Shown here piece after piece: positions 25,547 to 52,766 of a DNA stretch of 64,000 nt. The stretch is from assembly GCA_002049455.2 (NCBI GenBank), contig KV918889.1, positions 124,001 through 188,000 on the forward strand. The letters are read 5' to 3'. The notes beneath the pieces are model-generated. The model made no database searches, was not told the origin of the DNA, and was given only the letters and a program-made list of their open reading frames with translations. The stretch is from Porphyra umbilicalis. Lineage: Eukaryota; Rhodophyta; Bangiophyceae; Bangiales; Bangiaceae. Each line of letters starts with the position of its first letter. The first letter of the stretch is position 1. Both the position numbers and the translations under genes were made by a program.

Positions 25547-26945
25547 CCCACAGGGTGCGTGCACGCAGGTGCCGCAGTCGAGTGCTGCCGCCAAATGGCG
25601 GGGTGTGGCCCACAGAGGCCCCCACTAGAAATATGGGCCAGATATTTATTAGCCCGAACATTTCGGGCTCGCGATTCTAAGCGGAAAGCCCACAGGGTGC
25701 GTGCACGCAGGTGCGGGGGCTGAATAGGGGGGTGTGGCCCACAGTGGCACCCGTGGCAAATACGGGCCAGCAATTATCGGCGGGCCGATTTTGGGCCCCC
25801 ATTTTTGGCCGGTACGCGCGCAAACCGGGCGCGAGCAGGGCGCCCACAGGGTGCGTGCACGCAGGTGCGGGGGCTGAATAGGGGGGTGTGGCCCACAGTG
25901 GCACCCGTGGCAAATACGGGCCAGCGATTATCGGCGGGCCGATCTCGGGCCCCCATTTTTGGCCGGTGCGCGCGCAAACCGGGCGCGACCAGGGCGCCCA
26001 CAGGGTGCGTGCACGCAGGTGCGGGGGCTGAATAGGGGGGTGTGGCCCACAGTGGCCCCCGTGGCAAATGCGAACCAGCAATCATCGGCGGGCCGATTTC
26101 GGGCCCCCATTTTTGGCCGGTGCGCGCACAAACCGGGCGCGAGCAGGGCGCCCAGAGGGTGCGTGCACGCAGGTGCGGGGGCTGAATAGGGGGGTGGGGC
26201 CCACAGTGGCCCCCGTGGCAAATACGGGCCAGCGATTATCGGCGGGCTGATCTCGGGCCCCCATTTTTGGCCGGTGCGCGCACAAACCGGGCGCGAGCAG
26301 GGCGCCCAGAGGGTGCGTGCACGCAGGTGCGGGGGCTGAATAGGGGGGTGTGGCCCACAGTGGCCCCCGTGGCAAATACGGGCCAGCGATTATCGGCGGG
26401 CCGATTTCGGGCCCCCATTTTTGGCCGGTGCGCGCGCAAACCGGGCGCAAGCAGGGCGCCCAGAGGGTGCGTGCACGCAGGTCCGGGGGCTGAATAGGGG
26501 GGTGTGGCCCACAGTGGCCCCCGTGGCAAATACGGGCCAGCGATTATCGGCGGGCCGATTTCGGGCCCCCATTTTTGGCCGGTGCGCGCGCAAACCGGGC
26601 GCAAGCAGGGCGCCCACAGGGTGCGTGCACGCAGGTGCGGGGGCTGAATAGGGGGGTGTGGCCCACAGTGGCCCCCGTGGCAAATACGGGCCAGTGATTA
26701 TCGGCGGGCCGATCTCGGGCCCCCATTTTTGGCCGGTGCGCGCGCAAACCGGGCGCGACCAGGGCGCCCACAGGGTGCGTGCACGCAGGTGCGGGGGCTG
26801 AATAGGGGGGTGTGGCCCACAGTGGCCCCCGTGGCAAATACGGGCCAGCGATTATCGGCGGGCCGATCTCGGGCCCCCATTTTTGGCCGGTGCGCGCGCA
26901 AACCGGGCGCGAGCAGGGCGCCGAGAGTGTGCGTGCTCGGAGGTG
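25547..26945. repeat. Satellite array, eight 154-bp units plus divergent end copies
   Basis: The anchor CACAGGGTGCGTGCACGCAG, or the CAGAGGG variant, recurs at 25691, 25845, 25999, 26153, 26307, 26461, 26615 and 26769, exactly 154 bp apart. A divergent copy starts at 25549 and a degenerate partial copy at 26923. Units are nearly identical. Each contains AATAGGGGGGTGTGGCCCAC and CCCCCATTTTTGGCCGGT. Open frames across the array are by-products of the repeat. Confidence 0.97.
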
Positions 26946-27327
26946 CTCCGAAATGTCCTGTTTTACGTGATATCGGCATGCTCTCTGGGGCCACTTGATA
27001 GGTCCGATATTCTTGACTACCGGATCTGTGGCTGAGAGCTGTGGTCTAACATGCGTTTTTATCAGCTTGCGAGGACCGGGTTTCCGTTTCATCTGCGATC
27101 TGGACCCTATCTGGCTCGTCATATGCCCCTTGACACGGGCCCCGCCCCCTTGACATGCCGCTTCTTGGGGGGCTGCTTTGTGTCTGGGCAGGGTCGGTCG
27201 GCGTGTCTGGGGGCTGGTGTCTGTGTCTGGCACGTATCCGGCTGCCCCATGGGCGTCTCAGGGTGGTCTGTTCTGCTGTGACCACAGCGCTCGCTGGAGG
27301 ATCGTCGTCATTTGATTGGCTGAGTTG

Positions 27328-30164: not shown

Positions 30165-30175
30165 CGTATCGTCGT
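30165..30175. repeat. Left target-site duplication candidate of the KDZ element
   Basis: CGTATCGTCGT, repeated in direct orientation at 44570-44580. It borders the left terminal motifs of the 14.4-kb element. Confidence 0.65.
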
Positions 30176-30589
30176 GAAGTAATCGGGCGCATCCACATTC
30201 ACAGGATCGGGTGTGAGAATCGGCTGTGAACGGCTTCTCCACCAATCGGAGGCCGGCATTTCACCACTGAGGACGCTGGAGGGCCCTTCAGACACAGCCC
30301 TGCACCACCCCACAATGCGGCTCGTGGAGGCACCCTTCCAGACATTGACACGCAGACGTCTGGGCCCAGACACCCAGTGGGCCAGACATGAATTCGGGCC
30401 AGGCCCCAGACAGCGGCACGCGTCAGCGCCCGCGCCACCGTGGTGGCGCCCGCGCCGCCGTGCAGCACCACCGTCGTCGCCGCCCCTGCCCGCGCCACCG
30501 CCACCGCTGCGCCGCCGCCGCGCGGTGCCGTCGCGGCCCCCGGTGCTCCCACCCCCCCCGCCGCCATCCCCCATTACCCCCCCTCCCCC

Positions 30590-31545
30590 CTGGGTCATCT
30601 AGGATTGCACCCACCACGTAGCGCGTGCTTTTGCGCCATTATCCGGGCCCGGGCGCCGCCCCGGCGCGTCGGCGGGCGGCGGGGCGGGTGGGTCGACCGG
30701 GTTGCTTGGTGGCGTTTCGCGGCTGATGCTGGTGCTCCCCCTCCCCCCCCGTTCTTCTGGCACCACATCCACCGCGTAGCGCGCCTTTTTGCGCCTTTTT
30801 GCGGGCCGGGGTGCCGTCCCGGCGCGTCGGCGGTCCGCGGGGCGGGCGGGTCGATCGGGCTGCTTGGTGGCGGTTCGCGGCTGATGCTGGTGCTCCCCCT
30901 CCCCCCCCGTCCTTCTGGCACCACATCCACCGCGTAGCGCGCCTTTTTGCGCCTTTTTGCGGGCCGGGGTGCCGTCCCGGCGCGTCGGCGGTCCGCGGGG
31001 CGGGCGGGTTGATCGGGCTGCTTGGTGGCGTTTTGGGGCTGGTGATGGTGCACCCCCCCCCCCGCCCGTCATCTGGAACCACACTCACTGGTAGCGCGCT
31101 CTTCTATGCGGTTTTGCGGGCCCGGGCGCCGCCCCGTCGCGTCGGCGGTCGGCGGGGCGGGCGGGTCGTGCGGGTTGTTTGGTGGCGGTTTGCTGCTGCT
31201 GCTCGTGCTCCTCCTCCCCACCCCGTCATCTGGGACCCCCCCCACCCTGTAACGCCACTTTTTGCGCCTTTTTGCGGGCCGCGGTGCCGTCCGGGCGCGT
31301 CGGCGGTCGGCGGGGCGGGCGGGTCGATCGGGTCGCTTGGTGGCGGTGTGCAGCTGCTGCTGGTGCTCCCCCTTCCCCCCCGTTCTTCTGGGACCACATC
31401 CACCGCGTAGCGCGCCTTTTTGCGCCTTTTTGTGGGCCGGGGCGCCGCCTCGTCGCGTCGGCGGTCGGCGGCGCGGGCGCGTCGATCGGGTTGCTTGGAG
31501 GCGGTTTGCGTCTGCTGTTGGTGCCCCCCCCCCCCTGGCAGGCAG
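30590..31545. repeat. Subterminal tandem repeat, six units of about 158 bp
   Basis: Landmark (C)GTAGCGCGC or close variants at about 30616, 30775, 30933, 31091, 31249 and 31406. Each unit also contains GCGCCTTTTTGCG (weaker in the first and fourth units), GGCGCGTCGGCGG or GTCGCGTCGGCGG, and a C-rich stretch. It lies between the left end of the transposon and its transposase. No equivalent array is seen at the right end. Confidence 0.9.
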
Positions 31546-31597
31546 TCACCGCTTCCACCCCATGGTGTACCGGGCGCTTGCTTAAGGGCAGCTGGCC

Positions 31598-34500
31598 ATG
31601 TCCAGCGACCGGCCGCCGCCCTGCTTTTCGGGGCCTGTTGAGTTCTCCTTCTCGGGCAGCCGCGACGCGGCCAAAGCTGTAGTTGCTCGAGTGGCGCTGC
31701 TTCCGGGCCATGAAGGACCGAGCAACATTGTGCACATGGGCACCTCGTTCTGCCGTGGCCAACCTGTGGGGCGGTCGTGGAGCGATCAAGTCGACCGAGC
31801 TCGAGGAGGACGAGCAGCTCCTGACCGCGCTCCGTACGTCAAGAAGCGGTATGATGTCAGGTCCAACGACGACGCCCACCGGCGGGGGCGGTCGACCGGC
31901 GGGGCCAGGGTCGAGGACGGTGGCCAGAATGAGGATGCTGGCGGTACTTTATCCGCTTGGCCCGTGGCTCCACGATTGCGCATTGAGCGCGCCCCTGTGT
32001 TGGTCGAAGACCACGTCCACGAGACGCTGACGGCGTGCATCCAGCGTGCCTGCGGGCTCGCCACGTCGCAGCCGCTCGTCGCCCGGACATCCACCGTCAC
32101 TGCCCGAGTGATTGGCGACAAAGGCTCGCGGTCGCGAGCGATTGTCCTCCGCAGTGGCGTCGGGAAGAAGGATGTCGCCATCCTGTGGGTCTCCTGCCGT
32201 GACGGTCTCCTTTGTTCTTGTTTTGGCGGGACCCAGAACGCCCTCTTCCTCTCCGCTTCATCACGCAGCACCAAGTGCGTGCACACGGCCGCCATGAAGA
32301 AGGCGCTCGCGGCGTCGGGCGTGAGCATTCAAACCTTCCGTGGACGAATGCGGCTGCGGGCAGACGCGGCCGACTTTGCGGTACACGACGAGTACGGCTC
32401 CACGATCCTGTGGGCGGTGCTGTACAAGTCGGTCTTCTCCGTCGTCTCCTTTAGCTCCGGCAACGTGCCGGCGTGCATTGCCCCGGGTTGTCGCCGATTT
32501 CGCGGCCGGTGTGGCCACGTGCGCGTTGCCCGCCATCACCGAGGACCCGATGGCTTTTTAGACGTCAGCACCGGGACGGCGCCGGCAGTTGTCAAGGCGC
32601 GCCTTCACGCCCGCAAGCATGCAGGCGCCCAGCGGGCCAAGATGATCGACAACGAGGAGGAGGACGAGGGGGTTGAGAAGGAGGAGTCCGACACGATCCG
32701 TGGCGTGCACGACACCGACCAGGCCAAGCTTTCTTCCCGCGTCGCGCGCAACTTGCTGCCGTGCTCGAGCGAGTGCGAACAAGGGGAGGTATGGACGCGG
32801 ACGGCCGACTGGCGTGCTCTTTACATGAAGCGGCCACCGGGACCAGCGGCGGCGAACGCGCACAGCTTGAAGATGCTCAACCAGCTGTATACCTACGCGC
32901 TCGGAGCGGGTCACATCAAGGACGTACGAGACGTGCTGGTGGAGCCCTATTGTGGCAGCTGCGGGCAACGACGCGAGGAGCGTCACGAGGTGGTCAAAGA
33001 GCCGGGCCTATTGACGACACACCACCCTTCTGCGCCATCTCTGCAGGTATGTTCCACGACGCTCCTTTCTGCGCATGATCTTCTCTCCGTTTTATCGTGC
33101 AGGCTTTACTGGAAACTTGTGTTTGTGGTGCGCCCGGCAGCGGCATGGCACGCTCTGACCGCTCCGATAACTGACTGTCGTCCTTGTCTCCGAGAGGCTC
33201 TTGGTCGTTGATTTTTCGTTTGGAGTAGGTCTTAGTTGGCAGGTGGGAGTGCGATGCTGCAGAGTGCAAGCGCACGGTCGAGTACGACGGCAACGAGGAC
33301 GCGGTGTTCTCCCTGAGGCGGAGGAACAAGGACAAGAGGTGGTTGCTCTTCACCCGCGGGTTGCTGGACAAGTTGGTGTCCTTCATTATCGCGGGCCGCA
33401 CAACCTACACGGCAGCCACCCGGCACCTCTCCGCCGATGTGCGGTCCTTCTGCTTGCGGCGGCAGGACGTGGTGAAGCTGGGAACCGCCATCATCAAGAC
33501 GTTTGAGATCCCGCCCGAGTCTGGGCGATGCCCGTTGTGTGGTCCCAATCCCGCCTTCATTGTGATCGATGCCCAAGCACTTGGGTGCTCCGATCCCGAC
33601 GACACCACGCCGCTGCGTCCTGGAGAAAACTGCCCCGTGCTCGACATCCCGGCGTCCCAGCTGTGCCTTCTTGAGAAAGCTCCTTTGCGAGAAGCGGTCT
33701 CGAAGGTGCTGCGGAGCTCAACAGCGCTGACGGCCAGTCAGGTCGCGGCGTTGCGTACCTGGCACGCGACGGTCGATGCCCCTGGTCGCCCGACGCCGGC
33801 AGCTGCCGCCGCGAAGGTATTCTTTCACTTCTTCCCGCTCGGCGAGGAGCAAGCAGCCGCCCCACCGCCCGCCGCTAACGCGGAATCAGCGACCAACAGC
33901 AGCCCTACTGCCAATGCTGATGCTCCGTCGACGCGAAAGCGACGCCGCTCGTCCATGGCTCCCACCCTCGAGAGTGCGGTGCGCGTCGACAAGGACGGCA
34001 AGCTCGTGCTTGGAGGAAAGGGGCCCTCTCCCAAGAAGCCCGTGGAGGTGTGGTCCGACCGCGTCGGCCTGTGCCGCCCGGCCTTCGAGTTGTACCCGCT
34101 GGAGGAGGCGGACGCGTGGTGCGCGGCGCGCCCCTTCTTGCACGCCATGCTCACGGAGACCATCTGTGGCATGTTTCAGAGCTTTGACGAGGCGGCGGTG
34201 GAGCTGTTGGCAAACGCCATTCGCATCCGGGGTAGGAGCGCATGGCGCCACTTCTCGGCGGCTGCCGACGGTGTGGGGTACGTCGCCAGTTTTTTGGGGT
34301 GCTTTGCGGACGATCTGGACGAGGACCGCTTGCTCCGCGCGTCGGTTGGAGAGATGCTGCTCAAGGCTGTCTCCATCGAGAAGTTCGTCGACAGAGCCTA
34401 CGAAGAGCAGGCGGCCAAGAAGAGCACTCTCGAAGCCGGGTGGCAGAATGCCAAGTACTGCGCGAGGTGGAAGGGCACCCCCACGCCGGCGGACTACCTG

Positions 34501-36648
34501 GATTGGAGAATGGAGCAGAAGGACTTGGCCGCGCTGGACGACAACGACCCGTTGGTCAGCTACGAGTACTTTGCGGGGTTGCCCCGGGTACGGCCGGGCA
34601 TCATGGACTCGGAGGCCGCCAAGCGCCGCGTCCAGTACCGCGGGAAGGACAGGCACGTGGCCGACCTGGAGGGGGAGGGCGACGCGTGCAACAAGGCGTT
34701 TTCTATCAAGGCCGGTTTGACGCAAGGTGTCTTCAACGTTGTCTGCCCCCACGTCATCACGCTGGGCTTTCGCTGCCTCTTTCGAGCGGAGAGCGTGGGG
34801 GAGGCGCTGTCGATCGTCCTGGAGCGGTTCCCGAAGCTGCCGCGGGTCATATTTTATGACGTTGCGTGCAAACTTGACAAGAACGCGATGAGGCGCGTGA
34901 GGCCCATCATGCGCGCACACGGGGTCCGCTGCATCCTTGACCGGTCGCATTCCATTACGCACACCTGCTCGCCCATCTACATGCCAGACGACAGTTTGGG
35001 GTCGACCGCGGGCGTCGCGACCCAAGCCGCCGAGGTCTCCCACTCCGTCGCCGTTGTCAACCGTACAAGCCTGGCCTACATGGCCCCGGCCACCTACATG
35101 GTGCACAAGATGGTGCAGGTTGCGTTCATGAACGTGCGCAAGCAGTATCGCCTCAGCTCCGACAACTCCTCTGGGGAGAACGATCACGTGTGGCTCGCGC
35201 CCTTCTTCCACACCAAGGTTTCCCACCAATGCACGCGCATCTCGTCGTGCTCGTGCAAGCGGCAGCACTCTAACGACACGTCGATTGAGGAAGAGCCCAA
35301 CGTGGAAGGGCGGGACAACTCGGTGGGGGCGGCCAACGATGCGGCGGCGGCCAGTTCGGCGGAGGCGGTCCTGGCATCTTCGGAGCCAGAGGCCGCGGTG
35401 CAGCTCTTCCCGGCGACGAACTCAGACGATGTGGCCAGCAGGGAGTTGGGGCAATCCAACTTGCAGCAGGTGGGCAACGGCGTGGCGGTGGCCAGCTCGG
35501 TGCCGGCAGCCATCGTGTCGGTGGTGTCCGATGCTGCTGCGGTTGTTGACAGGGAGGATCCGAGCGCGCCGGCCGGGACGTACGCTTTCCTTGAGGCCGG
35601 GGAGGCGGCGGTCGACGGACCTGCTACCGATGCCGATCTCGGTGCAACTGGTTTTGTGGACTTGTCCAGTCCCGTCGACGAAGATGTTCAAGTCAACGGA
35701 GTGGCCGCCGGCAAGGACGAACTCGACAAGTTTCTGCACGGGTGGCTGCTGAAGGAGCACGAGCGTGTTGCGGCCGGCCGACTGCTGCTCAACCCCGAGC
35801 CCATGGACACACAGCCGCTAGCCAGGGAGGTGCTTGTGTTTTCCCAAGGCTTGTTCAAGCACCCGCCTGCCCAACCTGTACGACCGCGGAACAAGGGGCG
35901 CATCCATCTCACGGGTGCCGACTTCCTTCGACTGGCGGGAGAGAGCTGGCTCAACGATGAGCTCATCAACTCTTTCGTGGCACTCATCAACGACCGGGAC
36001 CAGCTGCTACGCACCGGGAGGAGACTCGGCGCGGAGGCGTCGTCGTTGGAGGTCGGCCGCATCGTGCCACGGACGAGAATGATGAACTCTTTCTTCTTCT
36101 CGCGGTTGGCGCCGCACCCGTCCCGCTACAACTACGAGTGGGTGCGCAACTGGGGCCTCAAAATGGGGCTCGACTTGGATGCGGTCGACAAGATTATCGT
36201 TCCCGTGAACCTGGCCAAGCTGCACTGGGTGCTGGTGGCTATCGACATCAGCAAATGCTTGTTTTACTTCTACGACTCCATCACCCGCGCGGACCGGCAC
36301 GGAGTGGTTGATGTTGTGCGGAGGTGGTTGGGTGACGAGGTGCGCTCGCGCTTGGGCGATGACGCCGTCGCCCGCTGGGATGTTGATTCGTGGGCGGTGC
36401 GGGCGGACCCGGCCTGGCCGCGTCAGACAGACGCGGGGAGTTGCGGGGTGTTTGCCGTGGCGGCTGCCGATTGCTTCTCGTTGGGTGCCCCCTTGTTGTT
36501 TTCTCAGAAGGATATCCGTACTCTGCGGGAGCGCATCGCTGTTGCTTTGTTTTTTGATGACTTGTGTGTGGGTGATGAGGTGCTGTCGGCGTTTCCAGTC
36601 GTGGACTCGCCGCCAGGAAGTGACGGGGACGACGAAGACGATGATTGA
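31598..36648 (+). CDS. KDZ transposase with N-terminal SWIM zinc finger and C-terminal Ulp1 SUMO-type protease (two exons)
   Basis: Exon 1 is 31598-33046; a 182-bp intron (33047-33228, GTATGT..GTAG) joins in phase 0 to exon 2 (33229-36648), giving 1622 residues. Residues about 206-230 form a SWIM finger (CSC, 16 residues, CVH), with a second Cys/His cluster (CIAPGC with RCGH) later in exon 1. Residues about 890-1140 are the KDZ RNase H-like core, with GVFNVVCPHVITLGFRCLF, VIFYDVACKL and ILDRSHSITHTCSPIYMPD. Candidate catalytic acids are D968 (GEGDACNK), D1027 (FYDVACKL) and E1133 (SSGENDHVW). The C-terminus is a C48 protease: H1482 (KLHWVLVAID), D1499 (FYDS), Q1549 and C1555 (DAGSCGVF). A Cys-specific deSUMOylase-like activity is likely intact. 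The N-terminal 100 residues are uncertain. Confidence 0.87.
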
Positions 36649-38655
36649 GTAGGTTGTTAACTGTATATGACCTCTTTTTTATTGAACAAGCACGGCCACC
36701 GTCCGCCACTGCCAGCACACATGAACCCCGCCGACTCCGTAAGGCAGTCTGAACCAGAAAGAAGCAGATAGGCTCGTATGTATGACGACACAGCAATGAT
36801 CCCTATGAACAGACTTCACGTGCGAAACTCTCAACCAGAGGGGGTCTTCCATTCTTCCCAATGACACCATTGAGCAGCGACACGTTCGTACTGAGCGGAT
36901 GAGGATTGTAGTTCCACAAGGATGGGGCGACTGCTTTCGAAAGTACTTGCTACTCGCTGGAATAGGCTACGGCGCTGGCCGCTCAGGGAGATGCACACAC
37001 GGCACCTTCATCGCTGCAGTGAAGAGCGCGAGTAACTACCAGCTGCTGAATGGCCACGTAGCACAAGATAGTTTCATCGTACATCAGTCGAGACTGGCAG
37101 TGATCGCAGCGACGGAGCAGACGATAGGAGCCCCCAAGTCGAACTAGAATACACCAATCTCCTGTCTACATGTTTCCCACGGAACTGCAGATGATGTACT
37201 GGACGCGTCGCAAACTGGTGCGAGCCTGGAGTGTGTACGCACAGCCAGCGAGATGTAGGCATGAACGAAAGTGTAACTTGCATACAACATGTCTCGTTTG
37301 AACAGAGAGAGTACAGGGCATCCCCACGAGCAACATCAGTGATGGGTACCAGACACCAGGTCTGGCGAGTGTGCGGTCCCCGGTGAGTCGCGTTACCGCT
37401 ACAGCTGTACATAGCAACTAAGTGAGCGGTGTAACTCTATGAGATCCGTAGGGCACCACCTGCCGCACTTCCCTGTCGCCGGTGCCGAGCGTGCGCCTCA
37501 CTACGTGGCTTGTATGAGAGCTCAGACATGAGACATGCGTACTACAAAAAGTCGTTGCGTCTTCGAATAGATCAGTTAGGTCATGGCCGCCCTGTTACAG
37601 AGCTGGTGAACTCCACCGTTCCCGTATCTGACTTCAAGCGGCAGATCTCGGGTCCAAAAGCGGACTAGGCACGGAGCGCACCTGTCGCGGAACTGACCGC
37701 GGAGGGATCGTGGACAGGTGGGTTATCTGTGGAAAGGTGCATGTCCGCCGGCGACCATGCGGTAGCCACTATGGCCTCCTTCTCGTGTTGAAGCCCATCT
37801 CTGTGTGGCTCGCGAATGCGATGCAGTGAGTGCAGTACATGCCGGTGGTATGGAGGTTGGGCATTCTTCGACTGCGAGAGCGGGGGGGAGCGGCTCTGAA
37901 GGAGGGGGAACGATGCCACAAGTCAAACTCCAGGCGGACTTGGCTGACGTGTACTCGGTTCATTGCTGCACTTACGACTTACATGCCAGAGGGCCTCCAC
38001 GACACCCGTGCCACGTCACAGAAGTAGCCTGGGCGTACACTAAACAAGCGGCGACGAATGACTGCACCTGCCTGTGTCAGCTGTCTCAACGGCTTGATCT
38101 CGGGAGGCGGGAGGGCTTGCAGAAGCATCGTTCCCGCGCTCTTCCCCCCCGTGTTTTCGGTCTGCCGGGACGGTGCCGTGACCAGCAGCACGGCGACTGA
38201 GGCCGCCCCTCTTCGTCTTCAGACTCCTGTACATCCTTCTCCCTGGCCCTCACGGCCACCAATAGGTAAGTTTCCATCTTCTCCAGTGCTCATCTTTCTG
38301 ATAAGGCTGGACGCTAAGGATACGAGACGTTGATTCCGCAGATGCGCCTGCGCCTGGGGACATGCCCCTCTCTGCGCTATTCCCTGGGGACCAAGCGGAA
38401 GCGGCTGGGACTTGATGCTGGTCCTTGAGCTCGATGGACCCCCAGCCCGTTCAGAGCGCTTCAGAATCTGCCCGTCGGTTGTTCCTTTCTCTCTTGTTCA
38501 GTGCTGTTCCCCGCCAGCCGCTGTGAGCACCGGTTCCTTACTGACGAGGCACGGTTCATGTTTTTCTGCTCTTTGCGCACGGAGTTTCTGTTGTCTACAG
38601 CAGGGAGCATTGGCTGAGGACGGCGGGGTCTTATGCAACTACACCGACCGCGTTG
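36649..38655. other. Intra-transposon spacer and probable helicase promoter
   Basis: Two kilobases of lower GC than the flanking genes, with no supportable ORF. Near the 3' side, a strong donor (ATAG/GTAAGTTT at 38266) and acceptor (TTCCGCAG at 38341) outline a possible 76-bp intron in the leader or in a short 5' exon of the helicase gene. Confidence 0.45.
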
Positions 38656-41309
38656 ATGGCGGCCGTGGTAAACCGCACGTGCAAGTATGTCGCCGTCTTA
38701 ACCCCGTCGATGTGTGTCATCCATAACTGGGCCGACGCGACGGAGATTGCGCGCCGCGTGGTCACCGCTGAGAACCACGGCATGCTCGCCACCCGGTGCT
38801 TTCCAACACAAAAGGATGCACTGTGCTGGCTCACCAACCCTGTGCACACGGAGGCGATGGCGGCAGCCGCGGCGCTCGTTAGGTGCACGGAGCCGGTCGT
38901 CGATGACTGCTACGACGAACACATTGCTGTCGTGACGCGCTCTTCGTCAAGCTGTTTTGGGATTGACTCGGCCAGTGTCGCTCCTGCACTGGCTATGGTG
39001 CGGGACCCACTGGTCGGCGCTTGCGTGTTCCGGCGGTTTGCTTCCAAGTCGCTCGCCTGGAGATGGCTGGTCGGCGATGCGGGGAGGTGCTTGCTGGAGG
39101 TGGTCGGGTGGCCACAAGGCGACGGCGCTCGCCCTGTCCGGCGCATCGGCGGCATCCCAGGGTCAACCAAGCCAGGCCCGGCCTCAACGGCGGCGTCAGC
39201 TCGATCCATTGGTGGTCCCGCTCGGGATGGACGTCCACCACCGCCCTCTGCAGACGACTGCGAGTTTGTGAGCAGCTCATGCGCGTCGTGGACTGGGGGG
39301 TCCCACCACCGCCGCCCCAGGCATGAGTATGGAGCCACGCCGCTGGGCAAGCGCACCGTCGCTCCCTCCCGCTCTTTCTCTGGTGTGGCGGCTTTGGGAC
39401 CAGGGGAGGGGCACGTCAGTGGCATCTCGTCCGTTGCACGCGAGCGACGGGTGGCCGTCGAGCCGCCCATGATCGAGCTCGACCTGACGGATGGCGGACG
39501 CAACAAGCGCCGGCGGTTGGGGATGTCGGGACGCGACGATCTCGTGCGACCGCGCAACGAGCCCCCACCGAGAGCTGGCCGGTCTTCGCAGTGGTCCGCT
39601 TCGGACGCAAGCGACTTGCTTCAGGCAGCCCGTCAGGTCGTCACGCCAGATGGTGGCGCTGGGTGTGCTGGGTCAAGTACAAGCCGTGGTCGGGCAGCCT
39701 CTGGCGCGCGGCATCTCGGTATCGTGCCGCAGTCAGCGCCATCTTTCTCTGCGACGCCAGACGACCACACCTCTCACCCGGATCGCAGGGGGCAGAGTCC
39801 GCGTCGTGGACTTGGCCGGCGTGGGCAACATCCTGCCTTCTCTTCTGGCCGGTTCGACGGTGGGGACAGTGATGGTCTCGCACTGTCTCCCGACGGGGTT
39901 GGGCCTATCGGCTTGTTGGCCGGCGCGGGGCGGTGGGACGAAGTGTGTGAGCAACTCTTCGCTCGGGTCAACAGCGCGTTCATCTCGGGGGGCCGGGCGC
40001 TGGCAAGTCGACGCTCTTGCGGCGCCTCCACGCCTTTCTCCGGGAGCGCTATCCGGCGGAGGGTGAGGTGGTGGTGCTCGCTCCGACTGGCACGTCGGCC
40101 AAGACGGCCGGCGGCATGACCTACCATTCGTTCTTTGGCTTTGGGCGTGACTACAACCCCGAGAGGCTCGACCCGAGCATCGAGGCCGCGCGCTTGCTGC
40201 AGACCGCCCGCTTTCGTCCGATCAAGGCGCGGCTTAGCCGCGTCCGGGCGGTGCTTCTGGACGAGGTCTCCCTTGTTGGCGCTGACAAGTTCGGCATCAT
40301 GCACGAGTTGCTGTCCCAAGCACGGTCCGACGCCTCCCGCCCCTGCTTGTGGTTCGCATTCGGGGATTTTCTCCAGCTCGGCCCGGTCAAGGGGGCCATG
40401 GCCTTTACCGCCCCATGCTGGCAGCGTCTTTTTGGCGGCTCCTTCTTGGATCTTCCCGGCTCCTTCCGGCAGAGCGATCCCGCATTCATCCGCGCTGTCC
40501 GAGATGCACGTGTCGGAAACTGCTCGGACGCTGTGGAAGGCCTCGTCAAGGATTGCTGGGTGGATGGCTCCAAGTATGAGAGCATGCGATACGATGTTCT
40601 TCACCTGATGCCACACCACAAGGGGGTCATCATGCACAACCGGGCCTGCCTGCAGCGCCGCACGTCAGGTGCTGAGGCGCGTTCTTTCGTGGCGGTCGAC
40701 GACGTGGAGCAGGACCCGGACGGGGACGTGTCGATTCCTCCACCTGCCTTGGCCGCTGTTTCCGGCGAGTCGAGGAGGGCGGCGCTGGTGGATTGTGTCG
40801 CTCCAGCCGTGGTGCTGCACTACCTCCATGCCCGAGTGATCATCAACACAAACCGTCGCAAGGCGCTCGGTGTTTGCCATGGCAGTGTCGGCTTTATCTC
40901 TTCTTACGAGGCCGACGGTACTCCTGTTGTCCGTCTCGACCACCACACGTTGCCGGCTGGTGTGGACCGCGGGCAGTCGGGCGTGCACGACGCCGGTGAC
41001 TCGTGGATTGAGATTGCTTGCCCCCCGGTGAAGTTTACCGCTCGCATCCTCGCTTACCCTGGTGCTTTGGCTGTTCGCTTGCAAGTTCCCTTTGTTTTGG
41101 GCTGGGCCACCACCATCCATATGTCTCAGAGTTTGAGTATCTCCCGGGCGGTGCTTGATTTAGCTGAGTGCTTTGAGGCGGGTATGGTGCAGACAGCTTT
41201 GAGCCGTGTCCCGACCAAGAGTGGGTTGCACATCAAGTCGTTTGCGTCCTCGCGGCTGCGGGCGGACCACAATGCTATGAAGATGTATGGCGAGTGGCGT
41301 CGGTTGTAA
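38656..41309 (+). CDS. PIF1-family helicase with two N-terminal viroplasmin-like domains (one homopolymer frameshift)
   Basis: The N-terminal frame (ATG 38656) has two copies of an RNase H1-N/viroplasmin-like fold: KYVAVLTPSMCVIHNWADA then RCFPTQKDALCWL, and HIAVVTRSSSSCFGIDSA then VFRRFASKSLAWRWL. A long disordered Ser/Arg/Gly linker follows. The helicase part lies in another frame: Walker A GGPGAGKSTLLRRL, TGTSAKTAGGMTYHSFFGFG, motif II VLLDEVSLVGADKFG, motif III FAFGDFLQLGPVKG, SFRQSDPAF, and a C-terminal block ending ALSRVPTKSGLHIKSF. The two frames meet exactly at a 6-G run (39987-39992) inside the Walker A loop; one more G would make the P-loop continuous. PIF1 enzymes unwind DNA 5'-3'; here a role in element replication or transposition is inferred. 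5' exons may be missing. Confidence 0.82.
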
Positions 41310-41344
41310 GTCAATATGTCTTGCTAAACTCTCATGTTGCTCGT

Positions 41345-43831
41345 TCACTTTCTCGCCGCATCGTCAGGATACCTCACTGGTAGGAGGAGGGCAAGAGAAG
41401 CACTAGCCGCACTCATGTCGGCAGCAACACGAGCGTGACGCATCCGTCTCTCCTCGGCTGCGTCGACGCCCATTGCCACCCCCGTTTCCGCCGCCCCCGT
41501 GCCCGCCGGCGGTGTCACCTCTCTGGCTGCGTCTGTAACACCCGCACCCACCCCCACCGTTCCAATGGATTGAATAGGCAGAGTAGAAAGAGTAGATGGA
41601 GCAGACACGCCTCCTAATTCAGAACCCGATGCACTTGTCCCAACGACCACGTTGGTAGCGCCACGCACGCCCATCCTAACATCCGACGTCGGCTCGGTCG
41701 ACGGTCCACCCGACAGAGACAGTCCGGCAAGAGCACCATGCACGACGGCCGGAAGGGGGCGGAGATGAGGCCGGGCACGCGCAAGCTTGACGTCGGTATC
41801 TCGTTCACCGTCGGGCGCTCCTTTGGCGCTGGCAGCACGGACCCCAGCTGCGGGGTTTCGTGCAGGAGCAGCACCCGTCGCGACTTTTCGCGGTCGGGCA
41901 GGACGCGCCGTCTTCGGCGCCTTGGCGGTGGCCTTGACGGTAGCGGAGGTACTGCCACCCTGGACGACCGTCACACCAACTGCGTCCATGGCGACTGGAC
42001 CACCACCAATGGCACCAGCTTCAGGTACATGTGTACCGCGATGCGTCGCCGGCGGCGGCGGCGCCCCACCTGCGCCTGGATTAGCCGCGGAAGCTGTGCG
42101 CGGCTTGCGGGCAACGGGAGGTCGAGCGCCACGAGCACGTGGCCGAGACTTGAGGAGCTCAACCCGTTGCGCCCGCCGCCGAGCCGCCTCCTTGCTGTTG
42201 TCCACCGCCACATCTGACGCCATCGACGCGTACTCCTCAGTGATGTTTTGAGGAAGCCCATCCTCAAACGCGGGCACATCGGCAGGGCCAGAGTTTGAAG
42301 CGGAGCCGGTCCTCGAGATCACGTTGCCCTCGGAGGCAGACGGAGCCAGCCCCGCAGTGTAAAACTCGTGGCGCGACGCAGCTGTCAAAGGCGCATTCTT
42401 GTTCACGTCGGCCCTCCCAGCGAAGGCCAAGTCGGTCAGGATGGTGGAAAACTGCTCCTCCTTGGTCACCATTAGAAGCAAGCAGGCGATCACAACGGTC
42501 ATCTTCATCGGCGACTTGCCGCTCACGCGCTGGACGCACTCGACCGCCGGCAGCTTGTCCTTCTTGAACAGCGCCGACGACTGGAAGCTCATGTCCTCCA
42601 GCGCGCTGATAATGCCGGCCAGATCTACGAGGATAGCCCACCGAGAGGATGCGGCCAGGCGTTTGCGGTTGAGCAGGAACGCCAATGTACCGTCGGGCGG
42701 CTTCGTGCTGCCGAGATCTTGAGGGGCCTTCCAATGCGGCCACCATGCCCGGCACATGCGCTGAATCGCGGCGGCGTCGGCCTTTGAGCCCGTCAGACGA
42801 GGAATGCCAGGCGCAGCAGAGGGTTCGGACCGAGAGCGAGCTAGGCAAAGGACCCCGTCCCCGAGAAGCTTGCGCAGTACGTCCTTGCCGTCCGCCTTGT
42901 TAATGACCGTGCGCAAGACCGATACGACCACCTTGACGGCGGACGCGGGGGGATGCACAGTTGGTTGATGGTCGTGTAGGACATGTGGAGGGATGAACCC
43001 CGCGTCGCCGTCGTCCGCCGCGTCGAGATCAGCCGAGTCCGTGGCCTCCGCAGCAGTTGCCATCGCTCGCCTGCTGGCTGAATCGGTCTCGTCGTCAGCC
43101 GAGCCGCGGCCGCCCATTGTGCGGGTGCGTCCAGCGACGCCAGCGGATCCGGGTACAGACACAAACAGCCCCGACTGTGGCACTAATCCCTCGTCCTCTC
43201 CCCCCCCGTCATCCTCCTCCTTGTCACCTCCATCGTCGGGGGCGTGGCCAGACGTCTGCCCGTTGGTGAAAATGACGCGGCCGCCCGCCGGCACAACCTC
43301 CTCTTGGCCGTCGTCACCGCCGTCAATCCTCCCAGGCTCCATGTCTGAGCGACCGGCCGTGGCGGCCGCCGGGTTGGCAGTGGTTGTCGACACAATTGCA
43401 CCACCACGCGGTAGACCTCCTTCCGTGGGGGGTTCTTTGCGGCTGGCAGCCGGCTGCGCCTTGCGCAGAAGCAGCGCACTAGCTTCCGCCAGCGCGTCCG
43501 CCTCGAGATGTCGGTACGCGTAGGCGAGGCCGAGGTTAACAATGCGCTCGGAGTGGGTGTTCGCGTCCGTGAAGAATTCCAGCCGGTCAACAACGCGGAT
43601 CCAATGGTGGGTGGGCGCCTCCTCCGGGTTGACGGAGACGACCATGCGGCTCACAGCACAGTGTAGCGCAGCGCCGTAGGGGGCGAGGTGGAGGTCGAGC
43701 TTGGAAGCCGCGTCGTACAGGTTACGCAACAAGGAGCAGAGAAAGGGCAACTTTTTCTGCTCCGTGATGTCCAGGTGCTCGAAGAACTGCAGGTACAGTC
43801 GCTGCTCGGCGTTGTTGGTGACCGGCTCCAT
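41345..43831 (-). CDS. Unrecognised third protein of the KDZ element
   Basis: 828 residues from ATG 43831; no known domain recognised. Residues about 1-125 look folded and mixed alpha/beta (LYLQFFEHLDITEQKKLPFL, HHWIRVVDRLEFFTDANTHS). An acidic disordered stretch follows (GGDKEEDDGGGEDEG). A second folded block spans residues about 290-470 and includes IQRMCRAWWPHWKAPQDLG, LAFLLNRKRLAASSRWAILV and MKMTVVIACLLLMVTKEEQF. The C-terminal third is basic then low complexity, with a nuclear-localisation-like run (AARRRAQRVELLKSRPRARG). The gene ends 35 bp from the helicase stop, tail-to-tail. Its intact length inside the element suggests a selected role such as DNA binding or complex assembly, but function is unknown. 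Confidence 0.75.
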   Translation of the reverse strand: MEPVTNNAEQRLYLQFFEHLDITEQKKLPFLCSLLRNLYDAASKLDLHLAPYGAALHCAVSRMVVSVNPEEAPTHHWIRVVDRLEFFTDANTHSERIVNLGLAYAYRHLEADALAEASALLLRKAQPAASRKEPPTEGGLPRGGAIVSTTTANPAAATAGRSDMEPGRIDGGDDGQEEVVPAGGRVIFTNGQTSGHAPDDGGDKEEDDGGGEDEGLVPQSGLFVSVPGSAGVAGRTRTMGGRGSADDETDSASRRAMATAAEATDSADLDAADDGDAGFIPPHVLHDHQPTVHPPASAVKVVVSVLRTVINKADGKDVLRKLLGDGVLCLARSRSEPSAAPGIPRLTGSKADAAAIQRMCRAWWPHWKAPQDLGSTKPPDGTLAFLLNRKRLAASSRWAILVDLAGIISALEDMSFQSSALFKKDKLPAVECVQRVSGKSPMKMTVVIACLLLMVTKEEQFSTILTDLAFAGRADVNKNAPLTAASRHEFYTAGLAPSASEGNVISRTGSASNSGPADVPAFEDGLPQNITEEYASMASDVAVDNSKEAARRRAQRVELLKSRPRARGARPPVARKPRTASAANPGAGGAPPPPATHRGTHVPEAGAIGGGPVAMDAVGVTVVQGGSTSATVKATAKAPKTARPARPRKVATGAAPARNPAAGVRAASAKGAPDGERDTDVKLARARPHLRPLPAVVHGALAGLSLSGGPSTEPTSDVRMGVRGATNVVVGTSASGSELGGVSAPSTLSTLPIQSIGTVGVGAGVTDAAREVTPPAGTGAAETGVAMGVDAAEERRMRHARVAADMSAASASLALLLPVRYPDDAARK

Positions 43832-44569
43832 GGCCGTGCTGCAGGTGCAGATCAACCAGAAGAAAAGAGGAAGGAAACAATGCAGACCACAGCACTAATG
43901 CACAAGAAAAAAAAGGAGTAAGGAAACATGGCAAGAGAACAGTGGTGACCAACAGACAAGGCGCGGCGCTCCAGGTACCCACGATGGACACACGGCCACG
44001 CAAACGTACGCTGCAAAAAGGACGTGTTCAAGAGATAAGGAACCACACCACAATCGCCCGTCAATGGCACCGGTCCTGAACACGGGGCGGGATGTCGGCA
44101 ACTGGCCGGGTGCAAGTATCCGCCAGTTCCGCACGCCCCTCAAGCCCAGTACGCCACTGTCAACGACCAACAACCCCACGGCACGGCAACCCAGCCTCAC
44201 CGCGGGTCACGGCATAGCAGACCGAAGGGGACTCCCCGTCGTACCCGACGGCGATGAGAGGCGCACCCATCGTCGTGCATGGCAGGTGCAATGCGTTCAA
44301 TCGGCAACCATCGCGGCGGGCGCGCGCGCTGAAGCGGGCCCCAATCTCCAAGGCAGGCGCGCGTCAGTGATGCGGAAGCCAGCAATCCACGAGAATCGGA
44401 GGCAATCGGCCGAAAATCGCCATCCCTACCGGTCCATAATTGGACCGAGGTCCAATTCAACGCCCCCCCCCAAACCCCCCGCAGGCGCCCCCCCCCCCCC
44501 CCCCCCCGGATTCTCACAGAGTCTGTTCACAGCTTCTCTGTGAATGCACATTTGGGCAATTCCTATCTC

Positions 44570-44580
44570 CGTATCGTCGT
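44570..44580. repeat. Right target-site duplication candidate of the KDZ element
   Basis: CGTATCGTCGT, identical to 30165-30175 and in the same orientation, adjoining the right terminal motif cluster. Confidence 0.65.
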
Positions 44581-46900
44581 TGCGCCCAAAAGTGGAGAGT
44601 CAAGACCTAACAAAGAGGCGCTGTTCCGCGTTTGATTGGCCCAGACATCGATCGGCTTGACTGGGGCCTCTCCAGCTTTTGGCGCAACGACCATATCAGT
44701 TGTGCAACAGTTGAAGTGTGAGTTTTTTGAGAGAAATGCTGTAGGAATCGGTGTTTGCACCACTTTGGGACCAAGAAGACTAGAATGACGCCTTCCCTAC
44801 TGTGTGAAAGCGGTCCGAAAAATCTTGTGGTCCGAAACTCTACGAATTCACCCGCTGCATGCGACCACGGGGAAACTACAACTGCGCGGTGGTCCGCCTG
44901 CTGCCCCGCGGTCGAACCGACGGACTTTCTCCGGCATCCTCTGGTTGTGAACGCCCGGTCGACGATCCCAGGAACATTGTTGCCAAAACACGGTACAGTA
45001 CCGCTGTGCTGCCCGTTCCTGCCTCCTTGGCTGGCACTCCTGTGGACGGCCGCCGCCCCTGACGCTGCGCTGTTGATGGCACACGCAGCGAGGCCGAGGC
45101 TGTACTGTAGCGCAAAGCAGGGGCTGTTCGCGGGTGGCGGTTGCGGCAGTGCGACACAGGCAGCTCGGCTTTGCATCGGGTGCGTCCCTATCTATGTGTT
45201 TTCAACAAGCATCCTGGCTCGCCTCTGGCCGCGGTTGCGATGCGTGAACTGCCTCGCCACAGCAGCTGGAACGCACCTGTTGCTTGGCCCAATCGCGGCA
45301 CCATCCTGATGCCGTCGGCACCAGGGGTACGATATCCCTGTTGACCCTGCTGGTATAATATTGCTGTTGCCAGGGGCGGAAGGACGAGCCAATTTCACTA
45401 TGCTGATCGCCCATTGTGCAAAGGCGCCTGACACCAGTCGCCGCGAGACGTCCCAGCGACTCTGAACGGGGAAGAGACTCAGCTTGTGTCGTTCGGCTTG
45501 GCCCCTCCGACGAATGGGAAGGGAGCGACTCGCCACCTGGTCAGGAACAGCTGGTGACACGAAGCCCTGTCAACGAACCGTGCGGGATCCGCGGGAAGGA
45601 CCCCCCCGAGGTTGTCGAGACAGCGCAGCGCCCCCGCTGTGCCTTGCAATTCACCGCGGCGGTGTTTCCACCCAAAACGCGACGCACAAGATGCGCTGGC
45701 GCTGGCGCTTTCGCCATGTCGAGGACACTAGCCGGTGCGACTCCCCTCGACAGCCCGGTGCAGCACACAGCCATTTGATCTGCGGCCGCATGGATTCCAC
45801 GGGCCACGTGCAGCTGCACACTGTAGCTGTGCCGCGCTGCACAATGCTGATGGATGACCAAGCCACCAGCAGTGCGCCCAGCTGCGGCAGCCGCCCCATT
45901 GGTGAGCGACCTGAATTCCGGCACTGGGGCCACACTCCTGCGGCCTCTGCTGGTACAGTATCGACCGGCACGCGCACAACTTGTGGGGAGGCAAGTGCAG
46001 GTTACAGTACAGGATGCGTAGAGTACGCGTGGTCAACGAAGAAAGCTAAATCGCTAAACCAAACCGGCCAAGAAGTTGAACAACGTGAAGTATAGCGTTA
46101 TTCTGGAGTGGAAATAGGAAACATCAGAGCGCACAATGACAGTCAGGCTGTATGTGATAGGAGATTTTCAACGGCGACTGATGACTGAATCGACCTTTCT
46201 GGTCAAATGGCCTCGGGCGGCGGCTTCATTGAAGGATTTTCCACAATGAAATCGTGGATGAGTTTGCTCGGACTTCACGGTTTATCAAGTGGACACCTCT
46301 ACATGGCGTGGATTTGCATGCAGTTCATGCTAGAAAGCATGTGTTGGTCGCATGGCTCCGCCACCGTATCGGCGGTGGGAGGCGTACATAACTCGTTGTG
46401 AGGCAGGCGGCATGGGGTGGCGCCATCGGCCAGCATCTCTGCTGCCAGCCGCAGTGAGCCTCCGTCCAACCATTTTCCCCGACCGCAACGCCGAGCGGCC
46501 GGGGGCTTTGAGCGGCTACCCGGTATGCGACGGCAGCCATGGCCTGCGTTGGCAACGTTGGCGACGTGCTGGGGCTAGTGCCGCCGCGTTCTCTACAAGA
46601 AGAAATGCTCGTCAAATAATGCACTGTAGACGTTCATTAACTTAAAAAATGCCATATCTTATTGAGTAGTTGATAGATTAATCCACTAGATTTGGGATCC
46701 CTACATCAAGAACATAAAATATGCATGTACACCCATATTATGGGTGTGTTTGCTTTAACCTCAACGCGGTTGCGTTCGTATGAATAATGATATTTGCAGT
46801 CCAAGTTTTTGTATACCAGCCAAGAGATGTCGAGCCTGAGGCTTGTGAGAGGAAGCTGTACATACACACAGTTTGGTAGCTAGTTCGTGGCTAGGCAAAA
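44581..46900. other. Low-coding intergenic DNA with an AT-rich island
   Basis: No gene is supported. Several TACAGTAC-type palindromes occur at about 44995, 45955 and 46010. 46620-46860 is the most AT-rich stretch in the window and holds a 9-bp-arm hairpin (ACACCCATA/TATGGGTGT, 46729-46747). At 46614 the sequence AATGCACTGTA resembles one end of the MITE at 23189-23320, with no matching partner end found. Confidence 0.45.
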
Positions 46901-47400: not shown

Positions 47401-47622
47401 TCAGCGCACCCTTGCAAACGGCAGGCGAGAACTTGCCCAGTGCCGCATAAAGGCCGCGGCCAGCGACGCTCGGTCGGTGGAGCTGCCGCGAAGCAGAGCA
47501 GCTTGTCCACGGAAGGCGCGTAGGCCAACCGCCATCTCTACCCGGTCAAGACAGAAGAAGACGAGCAACAAATCATCGTCACCGCCGCCTCCATCTCTGT
47601 CCTTGGCGGAGACACCGTCCAC
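47401..47622 (-). CDS. Short hypothetical open frame divergent from the trypsin gene
   Basis: 73 codons with an acidic start and a plausible folded segment (LLLVFFCLDRVEMAVGLRAF). It begins only 32 bp from the protease ATG on the other strand, so it could be a real divergent gene end or antisense noise. Not recognised. Confidence 0.2.
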   Translation of the reverse strand: MDGVSAKDRDGGGGDDDLLLVFFCLDRVEMAVGLRAFRGQAALLRGSSTDRASLAAAFMRHWASSRLPFARVR

Positions 47623-47654
47623 CGCATCTCACCGCCGACGCTCGTTGGCCAACC

Positions 47655-49241
47655 ATGGACGCATTGCCGCACCCTGCCGCCCGTGCAGCGACACGCGCGC
47701 ACCGCCGGCACGCCGCGGCGGCGGCAGCGGCCGTCCTTGTCACCGCCTTTGCTGCTGCGGCTTCTGCCAACGGGACGGTGTTGGGGGCCTCTGCCCCCGC
47801 CACCCTCAATTTGTTTGACGCCCTGGACCGCCAGTCGGCCGACGACCCGGCCGGCGCGGGCCCGCCCGGCAGCCGCCGTCGGATCTTCTTCTGTAGCGGC
47901 CCCGTGTCGATCACCGCAACATGCCCGTGCTACTGGAGGGTCCAGGCGGACAGCACGGTTTCCGGCCTATTCCTCGACGCAGCACTCGTGCTCGCGAGAA
48001 CGCAGCCGCCGGGAACGACCGAGGCGGACCTAGAGGCGGCGGCCGTCACCCTGGCCAGCCTATCTGTGTCGGAGGGGGAGCTGACGCCCGTGCAGGGGCC
48101 TGATGAGGAGTTTTTGTTTCAGAGCCGCTCGGCGATCATCCGCGAGTCCGTGACGGTTGTTGCCACCGCCACCCTCCGGGGGGGGACGGGCCTCGGAGAC
48201 GACGGGGACTGCGCAACCGCCCTTCTCATGCCTTTCCGCCCGGTCGAGGCGACGTGCCCGACGCTCGACATCTCCATTGGCGGCAGCGGCAGCCGCCTCG
48301 CGGTCGCCCGCGGGCTGACAGCTGGCGCGGAGGAGCCGCCGGCGGCCTTGGCCGCCGACCTTACCGAGGAGGACGTGGACGATCGCCGGGAGCCAAAGTG
48401 GATGCGCGGCGACAAGTTCGCGTCCGCCCAGTCTTCGCGCACCTTCGAGCGCATCGTCGGCGGCACGTCCCTCACCGACCCCGCAGCCCGTCGGTGGGTG
48501 GTCAAGATCTACGACATCATCAACGACCGGTTGCGCTTTACGTGCACAGGGTCGGCAATTAGTCGCCGGCACGTCCTGACCGCCGCGCATTGTGAACTTA
48601 CGGTGGATTCGGTGGTCAGCTTTTTGCCAACGTCGACGACGGGAGCGGGCACCAACGTGAGTGTCGTCGCCGTGACGGGGCACCCCGACTACGACGAAGA
48701 CACGAATGAAAACGATGTGGCGGTGCTGCGCCTGGCGGAAGACGCACCTGGGTGGCCGGCGGCCGACGAGCCTCCGCCCGTGATGGTCAACGCCGTCGCT
48801 GCGGTGCCCGCTGATAACTCGGCCGCCCGCACGTCTGGCTACGGCGTCATCACGGAAGACCACTTCTTTGTTGCGGGCGCGCGGTCGGTCGACGTCGTCG
48901 TTGTGCCGCCAGACCTGTGTGAGGAAATCTACGGACGCATCGGACCGCCCGATGAGCCAGCCTCTGACGGCCACGCGCCCGCGCTCATGATTTGCGCTGG
49001 GATACCCTCGGGCGGCTGCGACGCATGCCAGGGCGACAGCGGCGGGCCCCTCTACCAGACCACGACGGTGGAGACTGGCGGCGCAACGTCCACCGTGTCG
49101 GTGATTATCGGAGTGACGAGCTGGGGCGTCGGCTGCGCACGTCCGGGCGTGCCGGGCGTCTACGCGCGGGTCTCGGCCTACATCGAGTGGCTTGAATCGG
49201 TAATTGGTGCGCCGATGAGCATGCGGGCGGCTGTGGCGTAA
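47655..49241 (+). CDS. Secreted trypsin-like serine protease (S1A) with long propeptide
   Basis: 528 residues in a single exon. A hydrophobic Ala-rich signal segment lies at about residues 20-40. A pro-region of about 225 residues of unknown fold follows, with several Cys (FFCSGPVSITATCPCYW). The activation site is R266-IVGG. The catalytic triad is complete: H312 (LTAAHC), D354 (ENDVAVLRL) and S462 (CQGDSGGP). D456, six residues before the Ser, is the S1-pocket Asp of trypsins, predicting cleavage after Arg or Lys. Cys pairs typical of the fold are present, including the one around the Ser (CDACQGD) and GVGCARPGVPGVYARV. The protein is probably extracellular or vacuolar and is activated by proteolysis. 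Substrate is unknown. Confidence 0.95.
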   Translation: MDALPHPAARAATRAHRRHAAAAAAAVLVTAFAAAASANGTVLGASAPATLNLFDALDRQSADDPAGAGPPGSRRRIFFCSGPVSITATCPCYWRVQADSTVSGLFLDAALVLARTQPPGTTEADLEAAAVTLASLSVSEGELTPVQGPDEEFLFQSRSAIIRESVTVVATATLRGGTGLGDDGDCATALLMPFRPVEATCPTLDISIGGSGSRLAVARGLTAGAEEPPAALAADLTEEDVDDRREPKWMRGDKFASAQSSRTFERIVGGTSLTDPAARRWVVKIYDIINDRLRFTCTGSAISRRHVLTAAHCELTVDSVVSFLPTSTTGAGTNVSVVAVTGHPDYDEDTNENDVAVLRLAEDAPGWPAADEPPPVMVNAVAAVPADNSAARTSGYGVITEDHFFVAGARSVDVVVVPPDLCEEIYGRIGPPDEPASDGHAPALMICAGIPSGGCDACQGDSGGPLYQTTTVETGGATSTVSVIIGVTSWGVGCARPGVPGVYARVSAYIEWLESVIGAPMSMRAAVA

Positions 49242-51580: not shown

Positions 51581-51589
51581 ACCCCCCGA

Positions 51590-51990
51590 ACGGCCTGTTT
51601 GCGCGGGTACCTGTCTGCTGTGTGTGGGCACAAGGACGTTTTGGGGGGGTCGTCCGGGCGGCCGTGCCCCGACGAGCGGGCCGTCCGCCCCCCCCTCCAG
51701 AGGCACCGTTTGGGCGGGTACCTGTCGGTGGTGTGTGGGCACGAGGTCGTTTTTGGGGGGGTCGTCCGGGCGGCCGCGCCGCGACGGGCGGGCCACCCGC
51801 CCCCCCCCTCCAGAGGCACTGTTTGGTCGGGTGCCTGTTCGAGGTGTGAGCGCGAGGTCGTTTTGGGGGTCGTCCGGGCGGCCGCGCCCCGACGACCGGG
51901 TCGTCAGCCGCCCCCCCTCCAGAGGCACCGTTTGGGCGGGTGCCTGTCGGTGGTGTGTGGCCATGAGGTCGTTTTTGGGGGGTCACCAGC
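51590..51990. repeat. Tandem repeat, about four units of about 111 bp
   Basis: The landmark GGG(T)(A/G)CCTGT recurs at about 51605, 51716, 51829 and 51938. Each unit also has a TTTTGGGGGG-type G run, GTCCGGGCGGCCG and CCTCCAGAGGCAC. It lies immediately upstream of the Harbinger transposase gene. Confidence 0.8.
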
Positions 51991-52019
51991 GCAGCCGCGC
52001 CCCGACCTGCACCGCCACC

Positions 52020-52720: not shown

Positions 52721-52766
52721 TGCTGTCGACCACCGTCGTGGTGAAGATCCTCGCTCTGCAACGACA

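Follow-up and report, generated by a model that had tools for sequence, protein, structure and literature searches.

The locus and its element

The window, a 64,000-nucleotide stretch of the Porphyra umbilicalis genome, contains a complete KDZ-class transposon of 14,397 bp on the forward strand (30173-44569), whose edges were set by comparison with copies from two other contigs, C34 and C223. KDZ transposons form a little-studied superfamily. The element lies between two copies of an 8-bp target-site duplication, CGTATCGT, at 30165-30172 and 44570-44577. It carries a two-exon transposase gene and a PIF1-family helicase gene on the forward strand, followed by a large third gene, ORF3, that is convergent to both. 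We are highly confident that a single KDZ transposon occupies the locus, that its edges are those given and that all three genes are core genes, and the best explanation of its present state is that the element is complete and is autonomous now, or was until lately.

Edges and target-site duplication

An earlier sequence-only reading of this DNA had interpreted it as a complete transposon of the KDZ class that holds three genes and is bounded by a target-site duplication, a proposal that independent copies now strongly support, and had placed the edges just inside an 11-bp direct repeat. Both copies of this 11-mer, CGTATCGTCGT, are present (30165-30175 and 44570-44580), and these are its only two occurrences in the window, where the mean expectation is 0.02 and none of 100 shuffles had two. 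Genome-wide (83.8 Mb), the 11-mer is not special, as it occurs in 20 places against 25 for a reversed-pattern control. The true duplication, as shown by the C34 and C223 copies, is the 8-bp CGTATCGT; the trailing CGT of the 11-mer is the first three nucleotides of the element on the left and belongs to the sequence of a miniature element (MITE) on the right.

Whole-genome searches with the element ends, coupled to alignment of the edges, yielded two further complete copies with matching edges and 8-bp duplications of their own. The left end was found in six places. Of 21 matches to the right end, four are long, on C129 (the contig of the window copy), C34, C223 and C37, and 17 are short ones to the C-rich stretch. 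The C34 copy measures 14,620 bp and is flanked by a perfect duplication, CGCTGACC; the C223 copy measures 14,471 bp and is likewise flanked by a perfect duplication, GGGGGCCC. The duplication is thus 8 bp long in all three complete copies, and its sequence is different in each. All three copies start with CGTGAAG and finish with CCTATCTC, and homology between copies begins and stops at most 3 bp from the proposed edges. Since the left ends of the C34 and C223 copies start with CGTGAAG beside their own 8-bp duplications, the element spans 30173-44569: the right edge first proposed is retained, but the left edge moves three nucleotides outward.

No true empty copy of the insertion site was found in a search of the same genome, and neither empty alleles nor movement of the element were seen. 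The perfect duplication and the open transposase frame are compatible with the recent insertion first proposed, but the copies that share the element ends differ from the window copy at dS ~0.76-1.8, so no recent sister copy is seen and recency is weakly supported.

The insertion lies within the first bases of a 124-bp MITE (44572-44695), whose inverted arms occupy 44572-44599 and 44668-44695 (TATCGTCGTTG... ...CAACGACCATA). At least 38 further genome places, 83-95% identical, carry this MITE among the best 40 of 116 candidates.

Terminal motifs

The inverted end motifs announced by the sequence-only reading are present, as CATTCACAG stands 23 nt inside each end in opposite orientations (30196-30204 on the forward strand; its reverse complement at 44538-44546). 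Between copies the motif co-varies at both ends, reading CATTCACA in the window and C34 copies, GCTTTSACA in C223, and GCTTTCAC at both ends of C37, which has lost its right tip. We regard it as the probable recognition site of the transposase, given its shared offset and its co-variation. Apart from this 8-9 nt motif, inverted similarity of the termini is weak (24-31 of 70 positions identical) and there are no long inverted repeats; in a shuffle test, local-alignment scores of the two ends did not exceed those of the best shuffles. Three C tracts (C9, C6 and C20; 44463-44507, forward strand) lie 62-107 nt from the right end and occupy the same place in C34 and C223; runs of at least eight C are common in the window, with 51 in the 49 kb outside the element.

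The transposase gene

Two open reading frames, one SWIM-like and the other encoding KDZ and Ulp1 domains, are the two exons of a single gene. Exon 1 (31598-33046, forward strand; 483 aa) is separated from exon 2 (33229-36648, forward strand; 1,139 aa) by a 182-bp GT-AG intron (33047-33228), and the spliced frame is open over 1,622 aa. By eye, C34, C223 and C142 show a similar donor and acceptor in the corresponding position, and in C142 both transposase stretches lie within one open frame of 1,521 residues. A C-terminal Ulp1 domain and a SWIM-like zinc finger are features of KDZ transposases, and in addition to its KDZ domain the window protein presents the former and a pattern resembling the latter. 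The KDZ match itself is modest (PF18758, E 7e-5; 23.1 bits, below the Pfam gathering score of 26.6), and 9 of 86 listed KDZ homologues have a precomputed PF18758 assignment. Across 22 aligned sequences, the window's included, four motif residues do not vary: Y, D and V in YDVAC, and E in QAAEVSH. The Ulp1/C48 protease domain is assigned with greater strength (PF02902, E 1.2e-23, residues 947-1106 of exon 2). The "SWIM-KDZ-Ulp1 transposase" first recognized holds for KDZ and Ulp1 and is now described as one two-exon gene, while its SWIM part is a CxCx15-30CxH pattern (CxCxnCxH at aa 206) in an exon without Pfam match up to E 10. Named KDZ homologues come from Pyropia vietnamensis.

Upstream of the gene, a tandem array of 158 bp x 5.9 (30611-31535) ends ~60 bp before the start codon. 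An array of 157-158 bp stands at the same place in five of six copies (window, C34, C223, C37 and C142), and its unit sequences differ strongly. The constant period may reflect nucleosome spacing at a promoter, control of end length, or array turnover only.

The PIF1-family helicase gene

The second gene (38656-41309, forward strand) encodes a PIF1-family helicase with an unassigned N-terminal region. Identification as PIF1 rests on PF05970 (E 6.6e-9) and on matches to solved PIF1 structures (E 6.6e-24), and agrees with the first reading. The viroplasmin domain named in the same reading found no profile support: neither the window frame nor five homologues matched viroplasmin PF01693, and a five-sequence profile matched no PDB chain of an RNase H1 N-domain. 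A Helitron domain was likewise absent among the Pfam matches.

In this assembly the gene has one frame break, at Walker A (~39.99 kb), which qualifies the earlier statement that the frames are nearly intact; the transposase frame is open. The helicase gene is open in C34, C223 and C37, and an open version of 884 aa, 99.8-100% identical to the window gene, is found on a 12,928-base contig of another public assembly. A KDZ homologue at 99.7% is likewise found on a 12,928-base contig. The P. umbilicalis protein record BU14_0219s0028 matches the helicase gene at 99-100% over two stretches. Among 23 aligned helicase stretches, 21 retain the Walker A motif GGPGxGKS/T; C91 has Q in place of K, and the match of C36 starts past the motif.

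ORF3

ORF3 (41345-43831, reverse strand) encodes 828 aa and has no significant sequence match in Pfam, NCBIfam or PDB, in agreement with the first description of a large unknown protein. Its named homologues are from Pyropia yezoensis. The protein contains two conserved blocks, and a poor structural model predicts two long helices and, in the middle part, a mixed alpha-beta structure.

The three-gene arrangement across the genome

The KDZ, PIF1 and ORF3 genes were each searched genome-wide and then matched by position. The KDZ search, which covered the best 41 of 856 candidates, gave 40 loci from 67 matches, the remaining 27 being second pieces of the same loci. For PIF1, 51 of 110 matches were used after weak matches and second pieces were dropped (from a search covering the best 96 of 142 candidates), and for ORF3, 44 of 50 after removal of six second pieces. 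PIF1 lies downstream on the same strand at 34 of the 40 KDZ loci, and at 32 of them ORF3 also lies convergent beyond PIF1. Five further copies sharing the element ends have the same gene order as far as they are preserved; one of them, C210, is truncated and retains only SWIM and the start of KDZ.

Eight KDZ loci are without the standard arrangement. No ORF3 was listed at C400 and C442, and at C442 its position would fall beyond the contig start. PIF1 was not listed at C312, C257 and C104, and at C342, C24 and C172 it is upstream and divergent. At C172, where KDZ is ~34-41% identical, ORF3, PIF1 and SWIM-KDZ are all present in flipped order, with no Ulp1 match. Conversely, PIF1 and ORF3 occur together with no listed KDZ in five places (twice on C42, and on C124, C145 and C450); because the KDZ search covered the best 41 of 856 candidates, absence of KDZ at these places is soft evidence.

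Several of these loci show peculiarities of their own. At C37 (28687-53527), ~10 kb of extra DNA separates the transposase from the PIF1 gene, and a similarly long gap to PIF1 is seen at C13:352415. On C450, a diverged ORF3 relative (L049 6034-8283) and PIF1 (L049 9391-10000 with L050 1-1376) share a strand, and the 20 kb read there gave no match to KDZ; an ORF3-PIF1 pair on C145 (~121.6-125.4 kb) resembles the C450 pair. Nearby on C450 (L050 4257-6413), a 719-aa frame has 60 matches in the genome; its C-terminal part resembles by eye a 2-oxoglutarate dioxygenase, with no match in Pfam.

Selection and co-inheritance

Substitution rates show purifying selection on the transposase, PIF1 and ORF3 genes. 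Among the copies that share the element ends, omega is 0.09-0.38 overall at dS 0.76-2.2, excluding the very close pair C223/C210. By gene, it is 0.15-0.25 for the transposase (0.44 for C223/C210, at dS 0.08), 0.09-0.16 for the PIF1 helicase domain, 0.27-0.38 for the PIF1 N-terminal part and 0.24-0.27 for ORF3. Copies in which a stretch was broken or missing were excluded for the gene concerned, leaving three for ORF3, four for the helicase and its N-terminal part, four for the KDZ exon and six for the SWIM exon. Eighteen more elements were compared, and their eight closest pairs for each gene gave omega of 0.14-0.17 for PIF1 and 0.10-0.34 for ORF3. When every pair with dS < 2 is taken, the median is 0.27 for PIF1 and 0.51 for ORF3, the latter probably being raised by saturation.

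Pairwise distances of PIF1 and ORF3 agree closely (r = 0.90, a value reached in none of 5000 permutations) in the 23 elements compared, out of 32 that have all three genes in the standard order. PIF1 is 44-88% identical between copies. Of the 23 elements, 21 have an open PIF1 helicase stretch, the window copy being counted by its helicase piece, and an open ORF3 stretch is likewise present in 21. Since PIF1 and ORF3 recur at 32 of 40 KDZ loci, are under selection and have congruent distances, they are co-inherited, selected core genes of the element, and not the cargo that the sequence-only reading had seen in them.

Relation to known elements

In the usual view, a cut-and-paste DNA transposon requires a single transposase together with host repair. 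The fish Zisupton described by Boehne in 2012 is reported to contain a single coding sequence and to have subterminal inverted repeats of 99 bp. The window element shares with Zisupton/KDZ elements the KDZ domain, the C-terminal Ulp1 and the 8-bp duplications, and resembles them in its SWIM-like pattern, but it adds a separate PIF1 gene and a conserved convergent third gene, and its end repeats are weak. According to the available part of one source, 8-bp target duplications occur both in Zisupton and in the Dileera family Zisupton-1_PGr (PMC12730594); the length of the duplication is therefore compatible with either group. The same text gives Kyakuja 7-bp duplications and 5'-CA..TG-3' termini (PMC12730594), whereas the window element has 8 bp and ends of the form CGTGAAG...CCTATCTC. 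Zisupton and Kyakuja elements have also been reported from Chlamydomonas (PMC8226300, available part).

Accessory genes and helicases are each documented in other transposons. Fungal KDZ elements may carry TET/JBP genes, as stated in the accessible text of PMC12730594. Like the window element, these are KDZ transposons with an accessory gene, but that gene is a dioxygenase, whereas here a helicase and ORF3 are found and no dioxygenase domain occurs among the matches of the scanned frames. Among DNA transposons that encode a helicase, KolobokH has a RecQ helicase and the red-algal Kolobok-1_CCri has RecQ on the complementary strand (PMC9587614, in part), and DEAD and Helicase_C domains are named for AcademH and KolobokH (PMC10799480, in part). 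Their transposase superfamilies differ from that of the window element, and their helicases are of the RecQ or DEAD/Helicase_C type rather than of the PIF1 family. Helitrons do encode a PIF1-family helicase, as the window element does; theirs is joined to a Rep nuclease and they insert into AT dinucleotides (accessible portion of PMC4289320), in contrast to the KDZ transposase and 8-bp duplications described here. Five texts that use both kinds of terms, in the portions available, name Zisupton/KDZ and helicases apart from each other, or only in the reference list (PMC12730594, PMC7473861, PMC12477816, PMC11258239, PMC12411881).

KDZ transposons and DNA transposons with other helicases are thus known already, and the KDZ-PIF1-ORF3 lineage was not found among the papers listed in the literature searched, a body of mostly subscription-free papers that did not comprise the original KDZ/Zisupton papers. 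The lineage contributes to KDZ an element with mapped ends and duplications, and is a warning that counts of PIF1 genes in red-algal genomes include some that belong to transposons.

Proposed mechanism and alternatives

This red-algal lineage has kept PIF1 and a third protein through divergence nearing silent-site saturation, which suggests that the element probably requires helicase activity and a dedicated partner in order to move. In the mechanism that we propose, the spliced SWIM-like/KDZ/Ulp1 protein would bind the paired motif that stands 23 nt in from either end, and its KDZ domain would cut the element out and insert it with an 8-bp stagger; the ends, the duplications and the open frame are observed, and the biochemistry is inferred. 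PIF1 would then act during opening, copying or repair of the DNA, excised or integrated. PIF1 helicases are described as unfolding G-quadruplexes and as acting in break-induced replication (PMC3999857, PMC10279920, both in part), and the GC-rich element, with its C tracts near the right end, could plausibly pose a G-quadruplex problem for such an enzyme. ORF3 would assist as a DNA-binding partner or as a bridge within the complex. These roles, PIF1 in opening, copying or repair of element DNA and ORF3 as a DNA-binding or bridging partner, are offered tentatively, at somewhat less than even confidence.

A rather unlikely alternative is that PIF1 and ORF3 are passengers, captured once by an ancestral KDZ element, that benefit the element or its host indirectly, for instance through evasion of silencing or protection of the genome, and have no role in transposition itself. 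The transposition roles of both proteins are inferred, which leaves room for such a view, and the TET/JBP genes of fungal KDZ elements are thought to aid escape from silencing (PMC12730594, available part). Nevertheless, a helicase is no obvious silencing factor, and passengers would hardly be expected to persist at 32 of 40 KDZ loci across deep divergence, with congruent distances and under purifying selection.

Unlikely as well, in our estimation, is that PIF1 and ORF3 constitute a module for replication or repair and give KDZ transposition a copy-like character, either by DNA synthesis that the helicase drives from the cut ends or by obligatory gap repair. Such a module could be rearranged around the transposase or separated from it: C172 has the flipped order ORF3-PIF1-KDZ, and C450 has ORF3 and PIF1 with no KDZ detected in 20 kb.

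It is very improbable that the locus is a row of two or three independent elements, or of host genes, mimicking one transposon. The five places with PIF1 and ORF3 but no listed KDZ, C450 with none found in 20 kb among them, might be read in this sense; these absences are weak, given a search of the best 41 of 856 candidates, and the idea is largely refuted by the enclosure of the three genes within one pair of ends and one 8-bp duplication in all three complete copies, and by the repetition of their order at 32 loci. Finally, a chance 11-mer beside unrelated end-like motifs, with true edges elsewhere, could draw on the shortness of the terminal match and on the 20 genome places of CGTATCGTCGT, no more than in the control, but is refuted by the copies, whose homology limits fall at most 3 bp from the edges and two of which have their own 8-bp duplications, and its probability is negligible.

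Surroundings of the element

Outside the single KDZ transposon that we favor, the window holds other repeats and genes. A tandem array of 154 bp x 8.2, with units 96% alike, lies at 25688-26946. Beyond the right end, a trypsin-domain frame (47451-49241; PF00089, E 9.5e-35) is possibly an ordinary host gene, and a Harbinger-type transposase frame (51549-54314; PF04827, E 4.5e-52) contains tandem repeats in its first part.
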